DNA from: a virus
DNA length: 39,986 nucleotides
Reading direction: 5' to 3' (one strand)
IMG/VR virus record: IMGVR_UViG_3300036781_000626
Span: 1-39,986 of that record
How positions within the stretch are numbered: position 1 is the first letter of the stretch; every line of letters begins with the position of its first letter. Made by a program: the position numbers and the translations under genes. Positions 10,999 to 39,986 of this stretch are shown here, one piece after another. The notes beneath the pieces were generated by a model that saw only the letters and a list, made by a program, of their open reading frames with translations, ran no database searches and was not told the DNA's origin.

Positions 10999-11032
10999 GT
11001 CATGTCAAGCGCATGTAAAGCGGGGCCTTCCA
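10999..11032 (+). repeat. Dispersed intergenic repeat, copy 1
   Basis: GTCATGTCAAGCG, then ATGTAAAG, then GGGGCCTTCC. Shared with copies at 11421 and 22532. Each contains ATGTCAAGC, which would start a peptide MSS-x-[CS]-K; here that frame stops after 21 codons. No Shine-Dalgarno precedes it. Confidence 0.6.
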
Positions 11033-11420: not shown

Positions 11421-11453
11421 GTCATGTCAAGCGGATGTAAAGGAGGGGCTTCC
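11421..11453 (+). repeat. Dispersed intergenic repeat, copy 2
   Basis: GTCATGTCAAGCGG, then ATGTAAAGGAGGGGCTTCCC. It is nearly identical to copy 1 about 420 bases upstream and sits in the gap before the 11487 gene. Confidence 0.6.
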
Positions 11454-11486
11454 CTGGCGCGCGGGTGGTTGCTTACTGTGAACATC

Positions 11487-11837
11487 ATGGAAGTGATTCG
11501 TCATTTCGGGCATTTCGGGCGCAAGATCAGGCTATACGCGGGGCTTATGTACCTGCGTTTCGCCGGGCTGGCCAAATGGGCGACGGCGCTGACGGCGATC
11601 GCCGGGTGCGTGGCGGCCTGCTGGAGCCTGGCGAGTTCGTGGGAAGCGCGGACCAGGCAGCAACAGGCGCGGGATGACCATGTGGGGGAAGTCCAAAGCG
11701 AACTGCTGGAGGTGAAGGGGGACGTGAAGAAGCTGGTGGGTGACGTGGGAGATATCAAAGGGACGTTGCGGACCTTCTTGCGCGATCGTGAGCCGCCGCA
11801 TCTTTCGTTCGATCCCGATCTGTCGAATCCCAGGTAA
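11487..11837 (+). CDS. Single-TM coiled-coil membrane protein (holin candidate)
   Basis: A 116-residue protein from ATG 11487 (a GTG at 11478 is also possible). Basic N-terminus (HFGRKIRLYAG), a transmembrane segment about residues 32-53 (ATALTAIAGCVAACWSLASS), then a heptad-like soluble tail with VQSELLEVKGDVKKLVGDVG. A short TM protein with a coiled-coil tail upstream of an envelope module could be a holin, or a tail/virion accessory protein. The call as holin is inference only. Confidence 0.55.
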   Translation: MEVIRHFGHFGRKIRLYAGLMYLRFAGLAKWATALTAIAGCVAACWSLASSWEARTRQQQARDDHVGEVQSELLEVKGDVKKLVGDVGDIKGTLRTFLRDREPPHLSFDPDLSNPR

Positions 11838-11847
11838 TGGAGCGCGC

Positions 11848-12081
11848 ATGAACAACGGCGTGATCTACACGATTTTGGCCAAAGCCGTGAACGCGGCGCT
11901 GGGGATCCGGCCGGTACAACTGCTGCCCGAACCGCTGGGACCTGGGAGGCGGTTCACGAGCGGCCGCGGCCACGGGCCATCCAACCACTATTACCTTCCG
12001 CGGGCGCTCCGCGTGGCGCGGCGAAAACAAGAGCGGCGGAACCGGCACGCGGCGCAGCGCCGGCTGCGGATTGCGGCCTGA
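11848..12081 (+). CDS. Hypothetical basic small protein
   Basis: A 77-residue protein; ATG 11848 lies 7 bases after GGAG. N-terminus NNGVIYTILAKAVNAALGI, C-terminus extremely Arg-rich (RVARRKQERRNRHAAQRRLR). Likely binds nucleic acid or membrane lipids; no family recognised. Confidence 0.5.
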   Translation: MNNGVIYTILAKAVNAALGIRPVQLLPEPLGPGRRFTSGRGHGPSNHYYLPRALRVARRKQERRNRHAAQRRLRIAA

Positions 12082-12117
12082 GTTATCGACCGAGTCCACT
12101 TTTTTGAAGGGATCTAT

Positions 12118-12315
12118 ATGCATGACGTGAACGGCAAGCCTCTCAAGATTGGGGACAAGGTGCATATTCCGTGCGTCATCACAAGCCTGAGCGAGAGCTA
12201 TCCCGACTTTTGCAATGTCGCCGTCGAAACCATCCACGGGCGCCGGCCTGACGGTCAGAAGAACCGGTATGGCGACATCAACACCGGCCAGCTCGAGAAG
12301 GTCGACGAGGCCTGA
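12118..12315 (+). CDS. Small SH3-like beta-barrel protein
   Basis: A 65-residue protein with a clear AAGGGA site. The pattern MHDVNGKPLKIGDKVHIPCV, then NVAVETIHGRRPDG and INTGQLEKVD is that of a small KOW/SH3-like barrel, found as a stand-alone protein in many phages. Its function there is unknown. Confidence 0.6.
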   Translation: MHDVNGKPLKIGDKVHIPCVITSLSESYPDFCNVAVETIHGRRPDGQKNRYGDINTGQLEKVDEA

Positions 12316-12361
12316 CGACGAAGATCCGCTGAAGCATGAAACGCCAGACTGCTGGAGAGCG

Positions 12362-13462
12362 ATGAAATTTTTCCCGTCATTGCGGTTCTACATCATGATC
12401 TTCGTCAGCGCATTCGCGGCGCTGGAGGCGATCACCGCTTGTGCGCCGCATTTTGCGCCGACGTCGGCGGACCTTCGTCCCACGATCAACAGTGCGTCGG
12501 TGGAAGTGCAAAAGCAGAATGGGGTGCTGACGGCGCAGAATCAGTTGCTCCAGCAGCAGGTTCAAACACTCCAGACGGCGGTGGACGCGGCGACGGCGAC
12601 GGGCAGTTTGATCGACAAGGCGAAGGGGCAGGGGGCAAAGGCGGCGGCGGCTGGCGCCGGTGTCCCGGACGTGGTTACCAACCTTGCGGATCAATCAAAG
12701 ACGCTGGACGGCGCGATGAGTTCGAACGGACAGACCGCGAGTGAGCTCCGCGCCGCCCAGGACGAGAACGGGAAATTGAAATCTGGAAATGCGGCGCTCG
12801 CGGCGAGCAATGTGACGTTGAGCGGGCAACTCAAAACGCTGACGGACCAGGCGGCGGCCGGCGAGAAGGAGAAGGCGGGGTTGCGGGCCCAGGTGGCGGA
12901 GCTGACGAAGGAGAAGGAGGAGGGGCGGCTGACGACGCTTTACCATTATTTCGGGCTGTCGATCGCGGCGCTGATCGCAGGCCTTGCCGCGGCGATCTGG
13001 ATCCCGTCGCCGGGGAAGACGGCCGGTTATGTTTTGGCGACGATGGGGGGCGTTGGGCTGGCTGTCACGGTTTTTTTGATCGTGTGGATGAAGGTATTTG
13101 TGTGGCTGGTGCTGGCGGCTTTCGTCGCCAGCATCGGATACATCGCCTGTCAACTCTGGAAGACCCACGGCGCACTCGTGAAGACGAGCCAGGGCGTCGA
13201 CGGCATCAAGCAGGACCTGCAGACGCTGGTGAGCAGCAGTCCGGCAGCGGAAGTGAGGACGGCGGCGGGGACGATCCTGCGGGATTGGTTCGGTTCGATC
13301 GAGAATGATTTTGTCGGGATATTTCACTGGCTGCACAGCGAATATGAGGCGGTGATCGCGCGGGTGCGATCCCTGATCGGGAGCAAACCGGCGGCGGCGC
13401 CCGCTCCCAATATGGCGGCCGCGGTGAACGGTCCGGCGAACATCCTGACGAAGGGTGTGTGA
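12362..13462 (+). CDS. Lipobox, coiled-coil, multi-TM membrane protein (u-spanin-like layout)
   Basis: A 366-residue protein; ATG 12362 follows GGAGAG by 5 bases. The N-terminus has a hydrophobic segment ending in AITAC, a plausible lipobox with C27. Residues 40-200 are long coiled coil, rich in Gln/Ala/Glu (QNQLLQQQVQTLQTAVDAAT). Three transmembrane segments lie at about 203-225, 227-246 and 247-265, followed by an amphipathic tail. An N-terminal lipid anchor, a periplasmic rod and a C-terminal TM is the plan of unimolecular spanins (T1 gp11), though this protein is larger and has extra TMs. A bridging role between two membranes is inferred; no sequence similarity to named spanins is claimed. 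Confidence 0.6.
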   Translation: MKFFPSLRFYIMIFVSAFAALEAITACAPHFAPTSADLRPTINSASVEVQKQNGVLTAQNQLLQQQVQTLQTAVDAATATGSLIDKAKGQGAKAAAAGAGVPDVVTNLADQSKTLDGAMSSNGQTASELRAAQDENGKLKSGNAALAASNVTLSGQLKTLTDQAAAGEKEKAGLRAQVAELTKEKEEGRLTTLYHYFGLSIAALIAGLAAAIWIPSPGKTAGYVLATMGGVGLAVTVFLIVWMKVFVWLVLAAFVASIGYIACQLWKTHGALVKTSQGVDGIKQDLQTLVSSSPAAEVRTAAGTILRDWFGSIENDFVGIFHWLHSEYEAVIARVRSLIGSKPAAAPAPNMAAAVNGPANILTKGV

Positions 13463-13501
13463 TGGAAAGTGCGAAGGAAAAGGCATTCATCGAATTGATT
13501 C

Positions 13502-13520
13502 AGCGGGCGGTGCGCCCGCT
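13502..13520 (+). terminator. Stem-loop terminator-like element
   Basis: AGCGGGC and GCCCGCT form a 7-base stem with a GGTGC loop, then TTATGTT. It lies directly after the lipobox protein, which argues that the coding start of the next gene is 13552 rather than 13462. Confidence 0.45.
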
Positions 13521-13551
13521 TTATGTTCCTCTTGCCAAAAGGATTGAAACC

Positions 13552-13761
13552 ATGGCCACGATTCAGGATTTGCTTACCTCCGTCGCCAATCTCCAGGCCG
13601 CGGACACGGTCAACAAGGCTCGCATTGCCGATCTGCAGACACAGCTCGCGGCGTCGCAGGCGGCCAACGGGACGATCGATGATTCGATCGTGAACAACAT
13701 CAACTCCGTCAGCGCCGATTTGGATCCGCCAACGCCGGCTGCGCCGACGACCACCGCCTAA
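13552..13761 (+). CDS. Small coiled-coil protein (paralogue of 16123)
   Basis: A 69-residue protein from ATG 13552, after AAAGGATTG. An in-frame ATG at 13462 would run through the hairpin at 13502-13520 and is less likely. Heptad-like (LTSVANLQAADTVNKARIAD), closing IVNNINSVSADLDP. The gene at 16123 shares the plan and the ending (SVTNDLNP). Both look like trimeric or dimeric helical rods of virion or envelope proteins. Function unknown. Confidence 0.6.
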   Translation: MATIQDLLTSVANLQAADTVNKARIADLQTQLAASQAANGTIDDSIVNNINSVSADLDPPTPAAPTTTA

Positions 13762-13843
13762 AGACGGCGGTATTCCGAACACGACGACGACGTCCGCCGA
13801 AGTGCGGGACTCGGAACGATGACCCCTTTTTTGGGAGACGCGC

Positions 13844-14179
13844 ATGCCATCACCGACATTGACGCCCATCACGCCGACGCGCGCGGGGGTCGTGTTCGCC
13901 CTGGTCGCAGCCACCAGCGGCGGCGACAGCTTTTTGAATACCGGCGTCGAGGTTCTTCAGGTGACCAACGGCTCGGGAAGTTCGATCACCCTGACCTTTC
14001 CTATCGCGGCCACGGTGGACGGACAAGCCGTGGCGTCGAAGACCGTGGCCGTTGCTGCAGGCGCGACCAAGATCATCGGCCCCTTTCCGACCAGCGCCTA
14101 CAACGACGTGAATGGATTCTGCAACGTCACATACAGCGGCGTGACGACGCTGACCGTCGGCATTCTCAAACCTAGTTGA
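13844..14179 (+). CDS. Small beta-sandwich-like protein
   Basis: A 111-residue protein; ATG 13844 lies 6 bases after GGGAG. Thr/Val/Gly-rich alternation (SSITLTFPIAATVDGQAVAS, FCNVTYSGVTTLTVGIL) indicates a beta-sandwich like phage decoration or fibre proteins. It sits between the coiled-coil gene and the calpain-like gene. No family recognised. Confidence 0.6.
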   Translation: MPSPTLTPITPTRAGVVFALVAATSGGDSFLNTGVEVLQVTNGSGSSITLTFPIAATVDGQAVASKTVAVAAGATKIIGPFPTSAYNDVNGFCNVTYSGVTTLTVGILKPS

Positions 14180-14249
14180 TTCCCGTCCCCCGCCGCCCCG
14201 GCCGCGGATGCGCAACACGCACGGGGCGCCGGGATTTTCGAGGAACCAG

Positions 14250-15515
14250 ATGCAGCTTCGCAGATTCAGACCCGATCAATTCACGCGCGAGCCAAGGAAA
14301 CTTGTGTTGCGACTGGGCGCGCGCCAGCTGATGGCCATGCCTGGGATGTATGACGGCACGCTGCCCACCTCGATCTTCTCCGCGGTGCACGCCGCCGGCG
14401 CCGCTCCCCTGGTCTTCCGACCGCCCAATCCCGTCGACGGGGTTAATTATGTCAACATGGATTCGGTGCCTCTGTTCGCCGATCCCATCTCGATCCAGGA
14501 CACCCTCCAGGGAGAAACCGCGGATTGCTGGGAACTCGCAGTTGACGGGTCGATTGCCCTGGATAAGCCGGACCTGCTGCGCCAACTGATTATAAAAGAG
14601 GCCGAGAACGTTTACCGGGTGCGATTCTTCCGCAATGGGGCCGACAACTGGGTGTATGTTTCCGCCGATGTGCCAAACAATGGCGTGCACGTGACCCGGT
14701 GCCTATGGCCGGCGATCAAGGAAAAGGCGTGCGCGTTTTTCCGCAACGGGGCGAATACCTACGCGTCTTTGGATAACGGCCTGAATGCTTCGGCCTATAA
14801 CGATGAGGGGTTCTCGACCAAGCAATATGCCGCCAACGCCGCCGGTTGGGCAGCTGCGGCAGTCGCGCTAGCGGCGGGCTGGCCGGCGTCGGTGATCACG
14901 GTGCAGCTGATGCCCCCAGGCGTCGCGCTGATCGGGGATCATTCGCACACGGTCGTGGCCGTCGACGCAACGAACATCACGTTTCATAACCCCTGGGGAT
15001 TTGACGGGGCAGGCGCGGACAGCAACCCCGCCGACGGCACGGTAACGATACCGGTGGCGCTGGCGAGCACAGGCGTGGCGGTGATCTGCATCACGACCGG
15101 CTTCACGCCGCCGCTGCCATTCGCCCCCGCGGCGACCCCAGTATCTACACAGGAGTCTGCCGTGCCGCCGACCATCACCATTGTCCCCAGCAAGCTAAAC
15201 CCCGCCCTCAAGGAGGTCATCACGATCGGGTGGACGACGGATGCAGCAACCGTGGAAGTCACTGATGCGCTCTTCAAAATGAAGCAGATATACAAACCGG
15301 GGGATCCCTTCGCATTCACCGTGACCGCGCCCGACGTGTACACCTTTACTCCGATCGCCGCCGACGGAACGCGCGGGGTTTCGGCGACTTATCCCGTGCT
15401 ACAAGCCGCACCGTCGCCGGCGGGGAAAGTCTTGCAGGCGGTCGAGCTGGTGGCCACTCCGATTTACATCGGCGGGGTCCGCGGCACGCCAACGACCCAG
15501 ACTATTACCGCTTAA
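14250..15515 (+). CDS. Calpain-like (C2-type) cysteine protease with Ig-like C-terminus
   Basis: A 421-residue protein; ATG 14250 follows GAGGAA by 6 bases. Residues 85-100 hold DTLQGETADCWELA, the Q-G-x-x-x-D-C-W motif of calpains with nucleophile C93. A strand-rich part VRFFRNGADNWVYVSADVP corresponds to the calpain VRF...W-V-x-V-D-D block. DHSHTVVAVDA gives H233 and ITFHNPWGFDG gives N247, completing the Cys-His-Asn triad with the N-P-W-G box. Residues ~305-400 are a beta-sandwich, Ig-like. No signal peptide is obvious. The enzyme probably cuts host or envelope proteins. It lies in a membrane-protein cluster, where phages usually carry an endolysin; a lysis role is inferred. Confidence 0.8.
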   Translation: MQLRRFRPDQFTREPRKLVLRLGARQLMAMPGMYDGTLPTSIFSAVHAAGAAPLVFRPPNPVDGVNYVNMDSVPLFADPISIQDTLQGETADCWELAVDGSIALDKPDLLRQLIIKEAENVYRVRFFRNGADNWVYVSADVPNNGVHVTRCLWPAIKEKACAFFRNGANTYASLDNGLNASAYNDEGFSTKQYAANAAGWAAAAVALAAGWPASVITVQLMPPGVALIGDHSHTVVAVDATNITFHNPWGFDGAGADSNPADGTVTIPVALASTGVAVICITTGFTPPLPFAPAATPVSTQESAVPPTITIVPSKLNPALKEVITIGWTTDAATVEVTDALFKMKQIYKPGDPFAFTVTAPDVYTFTPIAADGTRGVSATYPVLQAAPSPAGKVLQAVELVATPIYIGGVRGTPTTQTITA

Positions 15516-15536
15516 AAGGGAATCAGCACCGCAGTC

Positions 15537-16112
15537 ATGCGCCACGACTACTACAACATCCTGATCGCCTACAGCGCATTCGCACTGCTGCTGGCCAGTT
15601 GCAAACCGCCCGCTGCCGCGGCGCCCTCGCCTTCGACGGCGGACACGCTGGTCGTGGTCGACGGCGGCTGGGGCGAGGATCAAACCGGGAAGATGGCCGC
15701 GGCCATTCGCGCCCAGTGCCCGCGCGCGCGGGTGATTTCAGTGGGATCGTGGGATGCGTACAAGGTGGATATCCGCCCGATCATTGCCGCCAACCCGCTG
15801 CCGAAGCGGGTTTATATTCTGCATAGCTACGCTGCTTGGTGGCTGACGCAGACGCTGCCGCATGCGGATTACGAGGTGATTTTGGACGGGGTCAATCCGG
15901 GTGGATCCGGGCAGACCTGGTACGGAGACCTGCCACTTCCGGCGAACGTCGATCACGTTGAGCTCTACTGGCGGACCGATTTAATCGGTCCGCGCGACGC
16001 GAGGATTCCAGGAACAACGCCCATCATTGTCCCCGGTGCTCACAACGACGTGCCGAACAACGAGGGCGTAATCGCTGCGACAATCGCTGAAATCAATGCA
16101 CTTGAACCATAG
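15537..16112 (+). CDS. Lipoprotein with alpha/beta-hydrolase-like motifs
   Basis: A 191-residue protein from ATG 15537 (the ribosome site is weak and far, AAGGGAAT). Lipobox LLLASC gives C22 as the lipidated residue, followed by a Pro/Ala linker. A strand DTLVVVDGGWG, helix, then VYILHSYAAWW with S97 in a nucleophile-elbow-like H-S-Y-A-A, then VILDGVNPGG, and VPGAHNDVPNNE with H169. This resembles a small serine hydrolase, missing the canonical G-x-S-x-G. It could be an envelope esterase, or, as a lipoprotein next to a u-spanin-like gene, part of the lysis set. Both ideas are inference. Confidence 0.6.
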   Translation: MRHDYYNILIAYSAFALLLASCKPPAAAAPSPSTADTLVVVDGGWGEDQTGKMAAAIRAQCPRARVISVGSWDAYKVDIRPIIAANPLPKRVYILHSYAAWWLTQTLPHADYEVILDGVNPGGSGQTWYGDLPLPANVDHVELYWRTDLIGPRDARIPGTTPIIVPGAHNDVPNNEGVIAATIAEINALEP

Positions 16113-16122
16113 AGGAGAAACA

Positions 16123-16356
16123 ATGCCTACCGCCCAGGATTATTCGAGCGCCCTTACAGCCCTGAATACCGCCGACCAGGCGGTCCAGGCAAAACTCAAA
16201 TCGCAGCAGGACACAATCGCGCAACTCCAAAACACCGTTGCGAACCTCCAGGCGCAAATCAAGCAGATGACCGATGCCCAGGTGCAATCCGATGCGCTTG
16301 CTGATGACGCGATCACGCAGATTAAATCGGTCACGAACGACCTGAACCCGGCATGA
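16123..16356 (+). CDS. Small coiled-coil protein (paralogue of 13552)
   Basis: A 77-residue protein with a very strong GAGGAGAAACA-ATG start. Heptads throughout (LKSQQDTIAQLQNTVANLQA), ending ITQIKSVTNDLNPA, like the protein at 13552. The pair brackets the protease and lipoprotein genes. Function unknown; a rod-like structural or spacer role is inferred. Confidence 0.65.
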   Translation: MPTAQDYSSALTALNTADQAVQAKLKSQQDTIAQLQNTVANLQAQIKQMTDAQVQSDALADDAITQIKSVTNDLNPA

Positions 16357-16399
16357 GGTCCGCCGCCGCGACCATCGGATTACCAGGAGTGGAAACCAA

Positions 16400-16783
16400 A
16401 TGACCCTTCCGACGCTTTCATCACCTGCGATCAGGAGCGACGGCCTGCATCTGACCGCGACGTTTTCAATTCCTGGCATGACGCCTACCAGTGGAAGCGA
16501 CGCGGGCGGGATTGCCGTGCATGTTTCTGGTGGAACTCCCAATGTGACTGGGTGGTCCATCAGCGGAACGACGTTGACACTTATGCTGGATGAGGCGGTT
16601 CTGCAGGGATCTGTCGTCACCTACGACTACGTCGGCCCCGCGCCGGCATTTGACTCCGCCAACTTTGAGGATGGGTCCAGCAACGCCATGGCAGCGTTCT
16701 CGGGGGTGACGGTAGCGAATAGCAGCGGCGGTCCGGCGATAAATCCAGCACTGAATCCCGCTTCACCACAGGGTTTTTTTTGA
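16400..16783 (+). CDS. SwmB/Ig-like repeat-fold protein
   Basis: A 127-residue protein; AGGAGTGG lies 8 bases upstream. The part TPNVTGWSISGTTLTLMLDE, then SVVTYDYVGPAP and the closing SNAMAAFSGVTVANSS is the pattern of SwmB-type Ig-like domains of surface and fibre proteins. Single domain; likely a virion decoration or adhesion protein. Confidence 0.6.
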   Translation: MTLPTLSSPAIRSDGLHLTATFSIPGMTPTSGSDAGGIAVHVSGGTPNVTGWSISGTTLTLMLDEAVLQGSVVTYDYVGPAPAFDSANFEDGSSNAMAAFSGVTVANSSGGPAINPALNPASPQGFF

Positions 16784-16792
16784 GGGGAAACA

Positions 16793-17095
16793 ATGAACAT
16801 GCAGACAGCTCTCACGAGCGCGGCCCACACGTCGGGCGCCGTGGCGGTCAAACGCGGCCGATATATTTTGAAGATCGACGGAACACTTGGATCCGGAACC
16901 GTCACGCTGACCTGGTGCGAGACATCCGGCGGCACATATGTCGCGATCGGTACGGGCGTGAGCCTGGCCGCGGCGGGAACCACCGAATTCGACACGGACG
17001 AGGGTTTTATCAAAGCGGACCTTTCCGGATCCACGGGCGCGACGGTGAATTGGGGGATCGCCGGCATTGTCGGCCGGGCGGCATCGGACGCTTGA
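16793..17095 (+). CDS. Small beta-rich structural-like protein
   Basis: A 100-residue protein; GAGGGGAAACA-ATG is nearly the same leader as at 16123. Beta-rich with SGTVTLTWCETSGGTYVAIG, typical of small phage structural proteins that report on 'variance/condition' type sandwich folds. It resembles in style the 24179 product. No family named. Confidence 0.55.
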   Translation: MNMQTALTSAAHTSGAVAVKRGRYILKIDGTLGSGTVTLTWCETSGGTYVAIGTGVSLAAAGTTEFDTDEGFIKADLSGSTGATVNWGIAGIVGRAASDA

Positions 17096-17145: not shown

Positions 17146-17469
17146 ATGCCATCGCGTCCATTGGCTCATCGGCCTTCATTCCATCGCCCGTCATCGCCGG
17201 CGCCGCGGCCGACGGCGGCGGCCCGCGGGTACGGGTATGACTGGCAGGAAAATCGGAAGCTGTTTCTGGCGGACCCGGCGAACGCGATTTGCCGGATGTG
17301 TTTGGCCGAAGGGCGGGCAACCGCGGCAACGGTGGTCGACCACATTATCGCGCACCGCGGAAATGAACATCTGCGGATGGATCCGAAGAACTGGCAGCCA
17401 TTATGCAAGCGGCATCACGATCAGAAGACGGCGCGAGAGGACGGCGGATTCGGGAGGAAGGGCAAATGA
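17146..17469 (+). CDS. HNH endonuclease (packaging-associated)
   Basis: A 107-residue protein with GAGGGG ribosome site. ICRMCLAEG and PLCKRHHDQKT give a zinc-binding C-x2-C...C-x2-H frame around VVDHIIAHRGN, the HNH core, and NWQPLC. The Arg/Pro-rich N-terminus is disordered. HNH proteins next to terminase genes in HK97-type cos phages are needed for end formation, so this supports cos-type packaging and a circular assembly. The activity is known for the family, the role here inferred. Confidence 0.85.
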   Translation: MPSRPLAHRPSFHRPSSPAPRPTAAARGYGYDWQENRKLFLADPANAICRMCLAEGRATAATVVDHIIAHRGNEHLRMDPKNWQPLCKRHHDQKTAREDGGFGRKGK

Positions 17470-17621
17470 GATGGCAGTGCAAGTTTTACATTTTTGGGTG
17501 GACGGATGTCATGAACGTGGAGGGCGCGCGGCTGCCGGCGGACGAGACGGTTCGGGCGGGCGTGTTCGCGATCTTTTATGGGCTGCCGATTCGGCTGGTG
17601 AAAGGAGAGAGCCGTGGCTAA
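17466..17621 (+). CDS. Hypothetical 51-residue protein
   Basis: ATGA overlap with the HNH stop (17466). MRWQCKFYIFGWTDVMNVEG, then TVRAGVFAIFYGLPIRLVKG. Its end overlaps the small-terminase start. A small beta-rich protein wedged between HNH and terS; no family recognised. Confidence 0.6.
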   Translation: MRWQCKFYIFGWTDVMNVEGARLPADETVRAGVFAIFYGLPIRLVKGESRG

Positions 17622-18075
17622 CCGTCCCAAACCGATGGCGCTGAGACTGGCCGAGGGGAATCCGGGGAAGCGGGCAATGAAGGGAAAGGGGGTGACGGCG
17701 GCGCCGGAGCTGCCGGCATGTCCGAAGGGACTGGATTCAGAGGCGATGCGGGAATGGAACCGTTTGGCGCTGGTGATGTTCAGGCTGGGGATATTGACGG
17801 GCCTTGATCGGGCGGCGCTCGGGGTGTACTGCCAGAATTATTCGGTGTGGATCCAGGCGGTGGGAAAGGCGAAGAAGGATGGGCTGGTGGTGGATGTGAA
17901 CGGGGGTCTGCAGGCGAATCCCTACCTGGGGATTGCCAACCGGGCGGCGGAGCAGATGCGGAAATACATGACGGAGATGGGGCTTACGCCGGCGAGCCGG
18001 GCGAGTTTGGTAGTTTCGGAGAAGGGTGGCGATGACCTGGACGACTTTTTGAACCAGAACTGGAAGGCGGGATGA
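17614..18075 (+). CDS. terS: Terminase small subunit, P27 family
   Basis: A 153-residue protein from GTG 17614 after AAAGGAGAG. The opening RPKPMALRLAEGNPGKRAMK is typical for P27-family small terminases, followed by a helical core with REWNRLALVMFRLGILTGLD and C-terminal ASRASLVVSEK. It recognises phage DNA and loads the large subunit. Ends in an ATGA overlap with terL. Confidence 0.85.
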   Translation: MANRPKPMALRLAEGNPGKRAMKGKGVTAAPELPACPKGLDSEAMREWNRLALVMFRLGILTGLDRAALGVYCQNYSVWIQAVGKAKKDGLVVDVNGGLQANPYLGIANRAAEQMRKYMTEMGLTPASRASLVVSEKGGDDLDDFLNQNWKAG

Positions 18076-19721
18076 AAAAAAAGGTCGACAATGTCGCGCG
18101 GAACACGAAGGCTTGGACGCGGAATGTGGCGGACGAGCGGGCGGTAGCGCGCGGGTGTTATTTCGATCTGGCCGCGGCGGAGCGCGTACGGACGTTTTTC
18201 AGCACATTCTTGCGGCATGGCAAGGGTCGGTGGGCGGGTGAGCCATTCGAGTTGCTGGATTGGCAGTGGGAGCGGTTGATTGCGCCCTTGTTCGGTTGGA
18301 AGCGGGAGGATGGGACGCGCAGGTTTCGCAAGGCGTATGTAGAGCTCCCCAAAAAGAACGGGAAATCGACTCTATGTTCGGGATTGGCGACTTACATGCT
18401 GGTGGCCGACGGAGAGGATGGAGCGGAGGTGTATTGTGCGGCCGCGGACAAGGCGCAGGCGGGGATCGTGTTCAACGAAGCGGCGAACATGGTGGAGAAA
18501 TCGCCGAAGCTGGCGGCGCGGCTGCAGGTGATTCGATCGACGAAGCGGATGACGTTTTTGGCGAAGCAATCGATTCTGCAGGCGCTGTCGGCGGACGTGA
18601 AAACCAAGGAGGGGCTTAATGCGCACGCGGTGATTTTCGACGAGCTGCACGCGCAGCCGAACCGGCGGATGTTCGACACGCTGGTATATGCCGGTGCATC
18701 GAGGGCGCAGCCGCTGCATATTTACATTACGACGGCGGGGCACGATACCGAGAGCATTTGTTACGAGCAGCATGAGTATGCGCTGGCGATTTTGAGCGGG
18801 GAAAAAGAGGATGACGAGTTTTTCGCCTTCGTCGCCGCGGCGGATCCAGGGGACGACTGGGAGGATGAGAAGACCTGGAAGAAGGCGAACCCAAGTTATG
18901 GGATCACGATCAAGCCGGAGGATTTCCGGGCGGCGTATATCGAGGCGAAGAACAAGCCGGCGGCGCGGAACAGTTTCAAGCGGTACCGGCTGAACATCTG
19001 GACGGAGCAGGAGACGCTGTGGATTGCCCCCGAGCAGTGGGCGGCGTGCGCCGGGGCGGTGGATCGGGAGGAACTGGCTGGACGGGCATGCCATGCGGGG
19101 CTGGATTTGGCCAAGACGGGGGATCTGACGGCGCTGGTCCTGATTTTCCCGGCGGAGGATGATTTTATCGATGTGCTGCCTTTCTTCTGGATCCCGGAGG
19201 ACAAGGCGAAGGAGAAGGAGGAAACGGATAAGGTGCCTTACCGGCAGTGGGCCGAGGAGGGACTGATCACGCTGACGCCGGGGGCGACGACCGATTACCG
19301 CGCTGTGCGGCAGACGATCAACGAGCTGAAGGAGGAGTTTGAGCTGATCGATGCGGCATATGACGACTGGAACGCGCAGCATCTGGTCACGGAGATGCGG
19401 GACGAGGACGGGATGGAGGATATGTGGTTTGCCTTTTTCCAGAACATCAAGAATTTCAACGAGCCGTCGAAGGAATTTGAGGAGCTGGTGACAAAGAAGA
19501 AAATTCGCCACGGCGGCCACAAAGTGCTGGCGTGGAACGCGAAGAACTGCACGGTGATCACGGACCGCTCGGGGAACATTCGGCCGGTGAAGCCGAAGCA
19601 CACGAGTTCGAAGAGGGTGGACGGGATTGTGGCGTTGATCATGGCGCTGGGACGGTCGATCGTGAACCCCTCGGGCGCTGGAACGAACTATGGCGAAGGC
19701 CATGAACTGCTGGTGCTGTAA
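18072..19721 (+). CDS. terL: Terminase large subunit
   Basis: A 549-residue protein starting in the ATGA overlap at 18072. Atypical Walker A P93-K-K-N-G-K-S99, Walker B VIFDE at 187-191, and a coupling motif YITTAGH. The nuclease domain starts GLDLAKTGDLTALV with D345, and later acidic residues in YDDWN. It is the Terminase_1 (YmfN-like) type that goes with P27 small subunits. Drives DNA into proheads and cuts it. Confidence 0.92.
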   Translation: MKKKVDNVARNTKAWTRNVADERAVARGCYFDLAAAERVRTFFSTFLRHGKGRWAGEPFELLDWQWERLIAPLFGWKREDGTRRFRKAYVELPKKNGKSTLCSGLATYMLVADGEDGAEVYCAAADKAQAGIVFNEAANMVEKSPKLAARLQVIRSTKRMTFLAKQSILQALSADVKTKEGLNAHAVIFDELHAQPNRRMFDTLVYAGASRAQPLHIYITTAGHDTESICYEQHEYALAILSGEKEDDEFFAFVAAADPGDDWEDEKTWKKANPSYGITIKPEDFRAAYIEAKNKPAARNSFKRYRLNIWTEQETLWIAPEQWAACAGAVDREELAGRACHAGLDLAKTGDLTALVLIFPAEDDFIDVLPFFWIPEDKAKEKEETDKVPYRQWAEEGLITLTPGATTDYRAVRQTINELKEEFELIDAAYDDWNAQHLVTEMRDEDGMEDMWFAFFQNIKNFNEPSKEFEELVTKKKIRHGGHKVLAWNAKNCTVITDRSGNIRPVKPKHTSSKRVDGIVALIMALGRSIVNPSGAGTNYGEGHELLVL

Positions 19722-35074: not shown

Positions 35075-35464
35075 TTAGAAATTGACTTTTTCCAGGATCA
35101 CGACACCCAAGGCCACGATAATAAGCATCAGGATAATAACGGCGACGGCCTTGAGGATTCCATTTTGCACGGCATCGGACATTTTCTCGGCGCGCGGGGC
35201 CGTGTAACGCGGACCGCCGGAAGGCTTTCGCGCGAGGCTCATGCAGGAGCCGCAGATTATTCCGTCGCCCCAGGGATATCCTTCGCCATCGTCCAGTTTT
35301 GTGTTGCATGCCACGCAGTCCCGGCCGATTGATCTGAGCTCGGATGGTCTGGAAGGTTTCGTTGAAAGCTTCGAATGGCATTCGGCGCAGACGACTGCGT
35401 CTTCCCAAAGCATTGGGGTTTCCAGATTGCCGATTGGCCGCTCACAGTTCTGGCATTTCTCCAT
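35075..35464 (-). CDS. Zinc-ribbon membrane protein with its own promoter (moron-like)
   Basis: A 129-residue protein read on the minus strand from 35464, GGAGA about 9 bases upstream; the longer reading to 35671 overlaps the repressor and is not used. Two zinc ribbons (CQNCERPIGN...VCAEC and CVACNTKLDD...ICGSC), then a basic/Pro linker and a C-terminal TM with LKAVAVIILMLIIVALGVVI. Next to the repressor, it would be expressed in the lysogen. A superinfection-exclusion or host-modifying role is inferred. Confidence 0.75.
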   Translation of the reverse strand: MEKCQNCERPIGNLETPMLWEDAVVCAECHSKLSTKPSRPSELRSIGRDCVACNTKLDDGEGYPWGDGIICGSCMSLARKPSGGPRYTAPRAEKMSDAVQNGILKAVAVIILMLIIVALGVVILEKVNF

Positions 35465-35511
35465 GGGCGGGATCTCCGGGGAGGCGTCGCAGGAACGGGG
35501 AACTTTCAGCG

Positions 35512-35540
35512 TATATAGGTTGGTTCTTTTTTTTGTGCAA
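35512..35540 (-). promoter_or_regulatory. Promoter for the zinc-ribbon membrane protein
   Basis: On the minus strand: TTGCAC, a 17-base spacer beginning with eight A residues, then TATATA. Right place for the start at 35464. Spacing is ideal though the -35 is moderate. Confidence 0.6.
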
Positions 35541-35558
35541 CGCCGGGGAAGAGGTAGT

Positions 35559-35963
35559 TCATCCCGCCTTGCTGGCGGTGCGCGCCGAAGTTTTTGCGCG
35601 GGGGTTTGGATCGGGGTGGAGTTGGGCGATCCGGCGATCGAGAGCGCCCTGTAGCACGTCGCATTCTTCATAACTGAGTTTGGCGATGTCGCGGATGTCG
35701 GTGAAATTCATGGGCTTCTCCTCATCGGGTTCCTTAGCCGGCGTCGCTAAGTCAGCGGCGTCTCCCTTCCATGCGGCGTCGAGTTGCTCGGTAGTTAGTT
35801 TGAGGCCATCCGCAAACTCCTGGTATTTGTGGCCCTTGAATTTTTCCCATTTGACCGCGCGGCTCACCAGCGAAAGAGACACGCCTGCGCGCTCCGCGAA
35901 CCTCTTGAGGGTCAGGTTGCGCTCGCTGATGAGCCCGACGAGGGTCTTTCCAAAATGGGCCAT
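35559..35963 (-). CDS. CI-like repressor, helix-turn-helix
   Basis: A 134-residue protein if started at 35963 (MAHFGKTLVGLISERN); starts at 35978 (ATG) or 36002 (TTG) are also open. LTLKRFAERAGVSLSLVSRA is a classical HTH_3/XRE helix-turn-helix. The C-terminal part is short, with helices and a Pro-rich end, and has no Ser-Lys peptidase module, so RecA-driven self-cleavage is unlikely. Divergent to the + strand RHH-like gene. It would keep early genes off in the lysogen. Confidence 0.8.
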   Translation of the reverse strand: MAHFGKTLVGLISERNLTLKRFAERAGVSLSLVSRAVKWEKFKGHKYQEFADGLKLTTEQLDAAWKGDAADLATPAKEPDEEKPMNFTDIRDIAKLSYEECDVLQGALDRRIAQLHPDPNPRAKTSARTASKAG

Positions 35964-36002
35964 TCCTAAAACTCTCATACCGACAAACCCCGTCGTCAAC
36001 AA

Positions 36003-36801: not shown

Positions 36802-37191
36802 ATGTCGTTCGTGACATCCATTTTTAATTCCAAAAACGCGGCCGTGGAAATCTGCGAAAACTGGGCGCGGACTCACGACGAACGAATGTTCATCCAGGAA
36901 TCAGCAACACCCTCAAAGAGCCTTGAGCTCCACATCGATTCCTACAGCGGCGCCGTGATCGACTCCGCCAACGCGTTTGCCCGCGGCTTTCTCGCCGGCT
37001 ACTGCTGGGCGATCAAACCAAAAGCAACCGTTCGCGAAACAACCGTTCGCGGCCGAACCACCAGCGGCGCGCCGGTGGAGATCAGTTTCCCGCCGGGCGT
37101 TCCAACTCCCTTTGATCGGGAGCGACCGACGACGGAGAACGCGTCAAAAAAAAGCGGGATGGCGCAGGCCGGTAGCGCGCTGGGCCCATAA
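36802..37191 (+). CDS. Hypothetical early protein overlapping the tRNA
   Basis: A 129-residue protein, GGAGG 6 bases before the ATG. MSFVTSIFNSKNAAVEICEN, AFARGFLAGYCWAIKPKATV. The last 13 codons lie inside the tRNA gene, and its stop TAA uses the last anticodon-loop bases. Possibly the natural end was earlier and the gene was extended when the tRNA was acquired. Confidence 0.6.
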   Translation: MSFVTSIFNSKNAAVEICENWARTHDERMFIQESATPSKSLELHIDSYSGAVIDSANAFARGFLAGYCWAIKPKATVRETTVRGRTTSGAPVEISFPPGVPTPFDRERPTTENASKKSGMAQAGSALGP

Positions 37192-37226
37192 CCCAGAGGT
37201 CGGTGGTTCGAATCCATCTCCCGCCA
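37153..37226 (+). tRNA. tRNA-Met (CAT), initiator-like
   Basis: A 74-base cloverleaf: acceptor GCGGGA/TCCCGC (37154-37159 with 37219-37224), D-stem GCGC/GCGC, anticodon stem CTGGG/CCCAG with loop CCCATAA, T-arm GGTGG-TTCGAAT-CCATC. Positions 1 and 72 are A and C, unpaired, and the anticodon stem carries GGG/CCC; both are hallmarks of initiator tRNAs. Position 33 is C rather than U, as in cytosolic eukaryotic initiators. No CCA is encoded in full. Confidence 0.85.
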
Positions 37227-39192: not shown

Positions 39193-39986
39193 ATGGGCGG
39201 TGCCAATGGAGTGGACGAAAACGTGGTCGAAGAACCCATCACGAGATTTCATCGTGAACGTGCTGTGCTGCTCGGGGGCCATTGGGCCGAACTATCCCTG
39301 TTGGAAAGAGGAGTGTGCTTCGTGCTGTTCGTGCAGTCTGATTTTAGGACCGGAATCGTGCGGTTAAAGATGAGCGACATCCAGCGCCTCGCCGGCATCA
39401 ACAACAAGGACCGCGCCGTCAAGGCCTGCCAGCACCTGGAGGTCCTCGGCATTGTTGAGCTGGTGCATGCCGGCGGTGGGTGGGGGGAACGGGCGGTGCG
39501 CCGGTTACTCTGCCCGCGCCCCCTCCCGGGATCCTATTTGTATGAACAGATGGAGCTGGGTTCAGAGGGCGTTTCCGCGCCGCCGGAACCCCAACCCGGA
39601 CAAAATTACAGTGCCGGTGAGCGAACAACTACGGTGCCGGTCACCGGCACTGTAATTCCCAACTACAGTGCCGGTGAGCGAACAACTACGGTGCCGGTCA
39701 CCGGCACCCCACGTCATACCCGTCATATAACAGCAGCAGCAGCAGCCGGTCCTGCAGCGCCCGACCCCCGCACTGAGGCTGCTGCTGCTGAGTTTTATTC
39801 TCGGGGGATCACGGATACTCAGACGCTCGCCTGGGCGATCGCGAATTACGACGACGACCGGATCGTCACCTCCCTGCTCCGCTTCGACGAAATCGGCCGC
39901 AAGGAGCGCATCGGAAATCCCGCGGCCCTGCTCCGCTCGCTGCTCACCCGCGGCTGCACCCCGCCGCGGCCCAGGCGCGGCCGCGG
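39193..39986 (+). CDS. Replication initiator with winged-helix domain (continues at base 1)
   Basis: ATG 39193 opens a frame that passes the right edge and ends at 278 after circular closure (312 residues). MSDIQRLAGINNKDRAVKAC and EVLGIVELVHAGGGWGERAV are the winged-helix of phage and plasmid replication initiators. Residues 138-172 hold two copies of NYSAGERTTTVPVTGT, which are the translated iterons. Then an Ala-run and a C-terminal helical domain, DTQTLAWAIANYDDD. It would open the origin lying inside its own gene, as lambda O does. No helicase loader is recognised nearby. Confidence 0.75.
   Translation, partial: MGGANGVDENVVEEPITRFHRERAVLLGGHWAELSLLERGVCFVLFVQSDFRTGIVRLKMSDIQRLAGINNKDRAVKACQHLEVLGIVELVHAGGGWGERAVRRLLCPRPLPGSYLYEQMELGSEGVSAPPEPQPGQNYSAGERTTTVPVTGTVIPNYSAGERTTTVPVTGTPRHTRHITAAAAAGPAAPDPRTEAAAAEFYSRGITDTQTLAWAIANYDDDRIVTSLLRFDEIGRKERIGNPAALLRSLLTRGCTPPRPRRGR
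39604..39707 (+). repeat. Iterons, candidate replication origin
   Basis: Two 47-base copies (39604-39650, 39661-39707; period 57, one mismatch). Each contains GTGCCGGT twice and its inverse ACCGGCAC once; GTGCCGGT-C-ACCGGCAC is a perfect palindrome. ATTACAGTGCCGGT and its inverse flank the first copy. Confidence 0.7.
39734..39790 (+). repeat. 14-base inverted repeat beside the iterons
   Basis: CAGCAGCAGCAGCC at 39734-39747 is the reverse complement of 39777-39790. It directly follows the iterons and an AT-rich patch (CATATAACA). Could extrude as a cruciform at the origin. Confidence 0.6.
39854..39979. repeat. Terminal direct repeat, right copy
   Basis: Identical to bases 1-126. The last seven bases of the window (39980-39986) do not match the continuation at 127 and look like an assembly tail. 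Confidence 0.97.

Follow-up and report, generated by a model that had tools for sequence, protein, structure and literature searches.

The stretch at 11487–16112, which lies between the integrase and the terminase genes of a soil-type siphophage genome, encodes a calpain-family cysteine protease with intact catalytic residues. We tentatively assign this stretch to two neighbouring units, one a membrane unit that may be spanin-like and the other a virion or accessory module bearing the phage calpain. The sequence-only reading had proposed a single lysis cassette of a one-TM protein, a lipobox/coiled-coil/TM protein, a calpain-like protease and a lipoprotein. All four proteins (designated here by the first base of their genes as 11487, 12362, 14250 and 15537, respectively) are indeed encoded at these positions. 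Their grouping into one cassette is not supported, because a tail-family gene (13844) lies within it and the composition of the calpain and lipoprotein genes separates them from 11487 and 12362.

Genome closure and the endolysin question

The window, the whole stretch of DNA that was analysed, comprises the 39,986 bases of an IMG/VR virus record. The first 129 bases are repeated at the genome end (128 of 129 identical, 126 of them in one unbroken run), which indicates that the genome is circularly closed and complete for questions of endolysin and lysis, as had been claimed. Profile scans identified the gene set of an HK97-type siphophage, comprising a ParB-like protein, integrase, terminase subunits, portal, head protease, head-tail connectors, tail terminator, tail assembly chaperone, tape measure protein and fibre. 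The packaging region begins with an HNH endonuclease and the small (TerS) and large (TerL) terminase subunits (17146–19721, plus strand). The integrase and a minus-strand candidate repressor (35559–36002) suggest that the phage is temperate. Next to the candidate repressor lies a minus-strand gene (35075–35671) whose product has a DUF4428/zinc-ribbon-like stretch and, at its C terminus, a strong TM segment. A tRNA gene with the anticodon CAT is located at 37153–37226. The palindrome GTGCCGGTCACCGGCAC is present in each of two direct 47-base repeats at 39604–39707, which are separated by 57 bases. Counted across the closed junction, these repeats lie upstream of the ParB-like gene (191) by about 0.3 kb and could be partition or operator sites. 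Gene 11096 is flanked by two copies of another element, GTCATGTCAAGCGSATGTAAAG (10999–11020 and 11421–11442), a possible promoter or operator that has no further copy when 3 mismatches are allowed (0 expected).

Relatives of TerL with 63–69% identity were found on two environmental viral contigs. In the genome collection, 64–65% identity over about 245 residues was found with a fragment from a Planctomycetota assembly, so that a planctomycete host is possible. TerL and 13844 relatives share contigs in four planctomycete genomes, some of which carry several copies, and these loci are likely to be related prophages.

No peptidoglycan hydrolase was recognised when 50 gene products were scanned against NCBIfam, PHROGs and Pfam, with further scans of the larger genes, and no amidase, lysozyme, SLT, M15, NlpC/P60 or similar domain was found anywhere in the genome. 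The earlier observation that a canonical endolysin is not recognisable was thus borne out. This absence discriminates poorly: six-frame searches of four TerL-related phages (41–43 kb), limited to four families (Amidase_2, SLT, M15 and NlpC/P60), gave one hydrolase match each in two of the phages and none in the other two. The lack of a recognisable endolysin appears to be common in this phage group, judging from these four relatives. The relatives identified by TerL have other genes at the place of the 11487–16112 stretch. Because no phage relatives of the calpain, the lipoprotein or 12362 were found, a conserved neighbourhood gives no help in assigning their roles.

The calpain, the tail-family gene and the composition of the block

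Gene 14250 (14250–15515, plus strand) belongs to the calpain family (Peptidase_C2, MEROPS C2). Its product matches PF00648 with an E value of 1.6e-8 and 34.4 bits, against a Pfam cut-off of 23.8, over profile positions 39–160 of 297, and a six-frame search for Peptidase_C2 gave an E value of 1.2e-10 at this gene. An alignment with two planctomycete calpains shows Cys93, His231 and Asn247 (numbering of the 421-residue protein) to be invariant, in agreement with the earlier identification, and the catalytic motifs are, in order, QGETADCW, DHSHTV and FHNPWG. The translation start is backed by an upstream GAGGAA, a good ribosome-binding site. No signal peptide was seen, and the sole hydrophobic segment found is internal. 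The protein has a C-terminal extension of about 125 residues, and the single-sequence AlphaFold2 model of the calpain had a pLDDT of 33. Judged from these features, 14250 is a calpain with intact catalytic residues and a putative protease.

No close match to 14250 was found among 50,697 phage records, and a degenerate DNA pattern detected no calpain in IMG/VR. The pattern returned four stretches, in which the sole readable protease was papain-like rather than a calpain (L109, 8052–9131 on the minus strand of an 84-kb viral contig, with an N-terminal signal-like segment). One calpain-like ORF lies in a 19-kb record, unverified and labelled 'Bacteriophage sp.', and was set aside because the record may be bacterial. 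The 3,795 calpain homologues covered by one survey come from eukaryotes and bacteria, and its text mentions neither viruses nor phages (PMC4631099), so that a catalytically intact phage calpain is unusual whatever its role. The calpains known so far are cellular, and finding one with intact catalytic residues in a closed phage genome would be an early, or the first, report of a viral calpain; it also raises the question of what a phage would cleave with it.

Gene 13844 (13844–14179, plus strand), which the sequence-only reading had omitted, is located between 12362 and the calpain gene, inside the supposed cassette. Its product matches the tail-protein family phrog_16194 (PHROG profile, E 1.7e-18), and its membership is supported by the profile match, by tblastn and by the tail-region synteny of its relatives. 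The search gave 18 viral relatives, several of which adjoin the tail terminator and other connector genes, with positions between the tail terminator and major tail protein genes among them. Placement beside tail genes or before TerS was also seen in the likely planctomycete prophages. The phrog_16194 member gp31 of phiSASD1 is annotated as a tail protein and lies within head-tail genes, and in an environmental siphophage the relative directly precedes the tail tube gene.

Genes 13552 to 17095 are tightly spaced on one strand. Among them, a short helical protein (13552–13761, plus strand) and a short coiled-coil protein (16123–16356, plus strand) are weakly similar to each other (shuffle Z 4.2; score reached in 3 of 2000 shuffles) and are possible paralogues. 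They are accompanied by a protein with an SWM-repeat-like stretch (16400–16783, plus strand; PF13753 with E 2.8e-5, under the Pfam cut-off, and TIGR02059 with E 7.3e-5) and a small protein (16793–17095, plus strand) weakly similar to 32382 of the tail region (shuffle Z 3.7).

The G/C skew at third codon positions is −0.035 for genes 13844–17095 (13.8–17.1 kb) and +0.313 for the upstream genes back to 10632 (10.6–13.8 kb). The corresponding values are +0.458 from the HNH and terminase genes through the portal to the head protease, and −0.074 for the tail genes. The 13.8–17.1 kb block differs from the upstream genes with p 1.4e-10 and compares with the tail genes at p 0.42, p-values that overstate the case because the test takes codons as independent. 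By this measure, the calpain and lipoprotein genes fall together with 13844 and the tail genes, and 11487 and 12362 with the upstream genes. The split at approximately 13.8 kb suggests two units of different history, for which the skew alone is no proof.

Membrane proteins and the lipoprotein

Gene 11487 (11487–11837, plus strand) encodes a 116-residue protein with one weak N-terminal TM segment by hydropathy, followed by a charged helical region. The TM segment is marginal, with a best Kyte-Doolittle mean of 1.56 over 19 residues, just under the membrane-protein threshold, and a clear ribosome-binding site is absent at both starts (ATG at 11487 and GTG at 11478). No phage relative was found, and the match to the PHROG Rz-like spanin profile reached only E 0.27. 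Of the one-TM, holin-like protein proposed earlier, the N-terminal segment is present in this weak form, and the protein is at most i-spanin-like or holin-like.

In the 366-residue product of 12362 (12362–13462, plus strand), an N-terminal hydrophobic segment leads to a lipobox, ITA-C27, as assigned by pattern and hydropathy only. The long middle part is coiled-coil-like, with profile matches to coiled-coil families, and is predicted to be a periplasmic rod without cysteines. Two to three TM segments follow at residues ~196–265, of which at least two, around residues 196–255, are strong, and the chain ends in a tail of about 100 residues. No relatives were found in IMG/VR or phage records. The predicted layout is envelope-spanning and spanin-like.

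Gene 15537 (15537–16112, plus strand) encodes a lipoprotein (lipobox LAS-C22) with an α/β-hydrolase-like layout. In a single-sequence AlphaFold2 model of low confidence (pLDDT 57), strands and helices alternate in β-α order, Ser97 occupies the nucleophile-elbow position, and Asp148 and His168 come after later strands, consistent with the serine-hydrolase-like lipoprotein recognised in the earlier reading. The best PDB match of the model was the TesA thioesterase 6fw5 (probability 0.94, TM 0.55, E 0.026), and no PDB match fell below E 0.001. No sequence relative was found, including in IMG/VR and phage records, and short, weak planctomycete matches were taken as noise. Because of the low pLDDT, we tentatively treat 15537 as a lipoprotein that is probably a hydrolase.

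Possible roles and comparison with known systems

In the arrangement that we tentatively favour, the upstream unit would be 12362, possibly with 11487, an envelope-spanning protein that could take part in lysis in the manner of a spanin or holin. The downstream unit (13844–17095) would be a virion or accessory module composed of the tail-family gene, the small proteins, the calpain-type protease and the lipoprotein hydrolase. Lacking an export signal, the calpain would be packaged in or attached to the virion, or would process proteins during assembly, and the lipoprotein would go to the host envelope. The actual endolysin would be some unassigned gene, too divergent for recognition. The gene content, families, catalytic residues, composition split and position of 13844 are observed, and every function is proposed from them. 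A lipoprotein signal would not be expected in a virion module and argues against this arrangement, and one tail gene is compatible with a lysis role because lysis genes can adjoin structural genes.

It is unlikely, though next in our order, that the calpain and the lipoprotein hydrolase are cargo that alters the envelope of the lysogen (conversion) or blocks competing phages (superinfection exclusion). The integrase and the candidate repressor point to a temperate phage, the two genes are absent from all relatives found, and exclusion by lipoproteins is known from other phages. However, both genes lie on the same strand as late-type genes, embedded between them and with tail-gene composition, and no promoter or terminator above chance sets them apart. 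Protease-based lysis is possible but not favoured, and we rate it as less probable still. Here, 11487 would permeabilise the inner membrane, the cytoplasmic calpain would escape and cut envelope proteins or peptidoglycan peptides, the lipoprotein hydrolase would weaken the outer membrane and 12362 would fuse the membranes. Apart from the missing endolysin, this scheme draws on the few predicted membrane or exported proteins genome-wide, three of which are encoded here (11487 being just under the threshold), and on a calpain that, like holin-dependent endolysins, has no signal peptide. The position just before terminase is also in its favour, as the lysis genes of lambda likewise lie directly upstream of terminase. 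The peptidoglycan peptidases of the CHAP and NlpC/P60 types have a papain-like clan CA fold. The calpain fold is likewise papain-like, of clan CA (PMC4631099). The tail-family gene inside the block, the separate composition of the calpain and lipoprotein genes, the weakness of 11487 as a membrane protein without a clear ribosome-binding site, and the lack of a conserved cassette in any of the relatives found all speak against this scheme.

Ranked below protease-based lysis, and doubtful, is a role of 12362 and 11487 in lysis together with an unrecognised endolysin elsewhere, the calpain and the lipoprotein being unrelated to lysis or the virion. The spanin-like layout of 12362 and the frequency of unrecognised endolysins among relatives would fit, but no endolysin candidate can be named in the remaining genes. 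We give the least credence to the specific claim that the calpain replaces a peptidoglycan hydrolase in killing a diderm host, with a lipid-anchored hydrolase and a multi-TM spanin of unusual type as helpers. If true, calpain-based killing would be a new principle of phage lysis, and if the calpain acted in lysis, release without a peptidoglycan hydrolase would become directly testable.

The phage calpain has the catalytic-domain match and the conserved Cys-His-Asn in common with bacterial calpains. In contrast, it shares only 27% identity with planctomycete calpains, is phage-encoded and apparently lacks a signal peptide, whereas the distant planctomycete proteins L033/L034 have N-terminal signal-peptide-like segments. 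Gene 13844 is located just before TerS, as in L010/L088, L090 and L091, whereas elsewhere its relatives lie inside the tail operon. In its model, 15537 resembles α/β-hydrolases such as TesA (6fw5) in strand-helix order and the placement of the candidate Ser-Asp-His, but it is lipid-anchored, has the nucleophile motif HSYAA instead of GxSxG, and has no sequence relative. In the u-spanins described so far the TMD is single and C-terminal, and the periplasmic domain of the T1 prototype (gp11) is β-rich (PMC6139136). Gene product 12362 resembles these unimolecular spanins in its N-terminal lipobox, C-terminal membrane anchoring and cysteine-free periplasmic part, and to this extent the u-spanin layout proposed earlier stands. 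It departs from them in that multiple TM segments and a long tail at the C terminus replace the single C-terminal TMD, and probably also in that the periplasmic part is coiled-coil-like, judged by sequence matches, rather than β-rich. By analogy, 12362 may work like a spanin while standing outside the u-spanin group.
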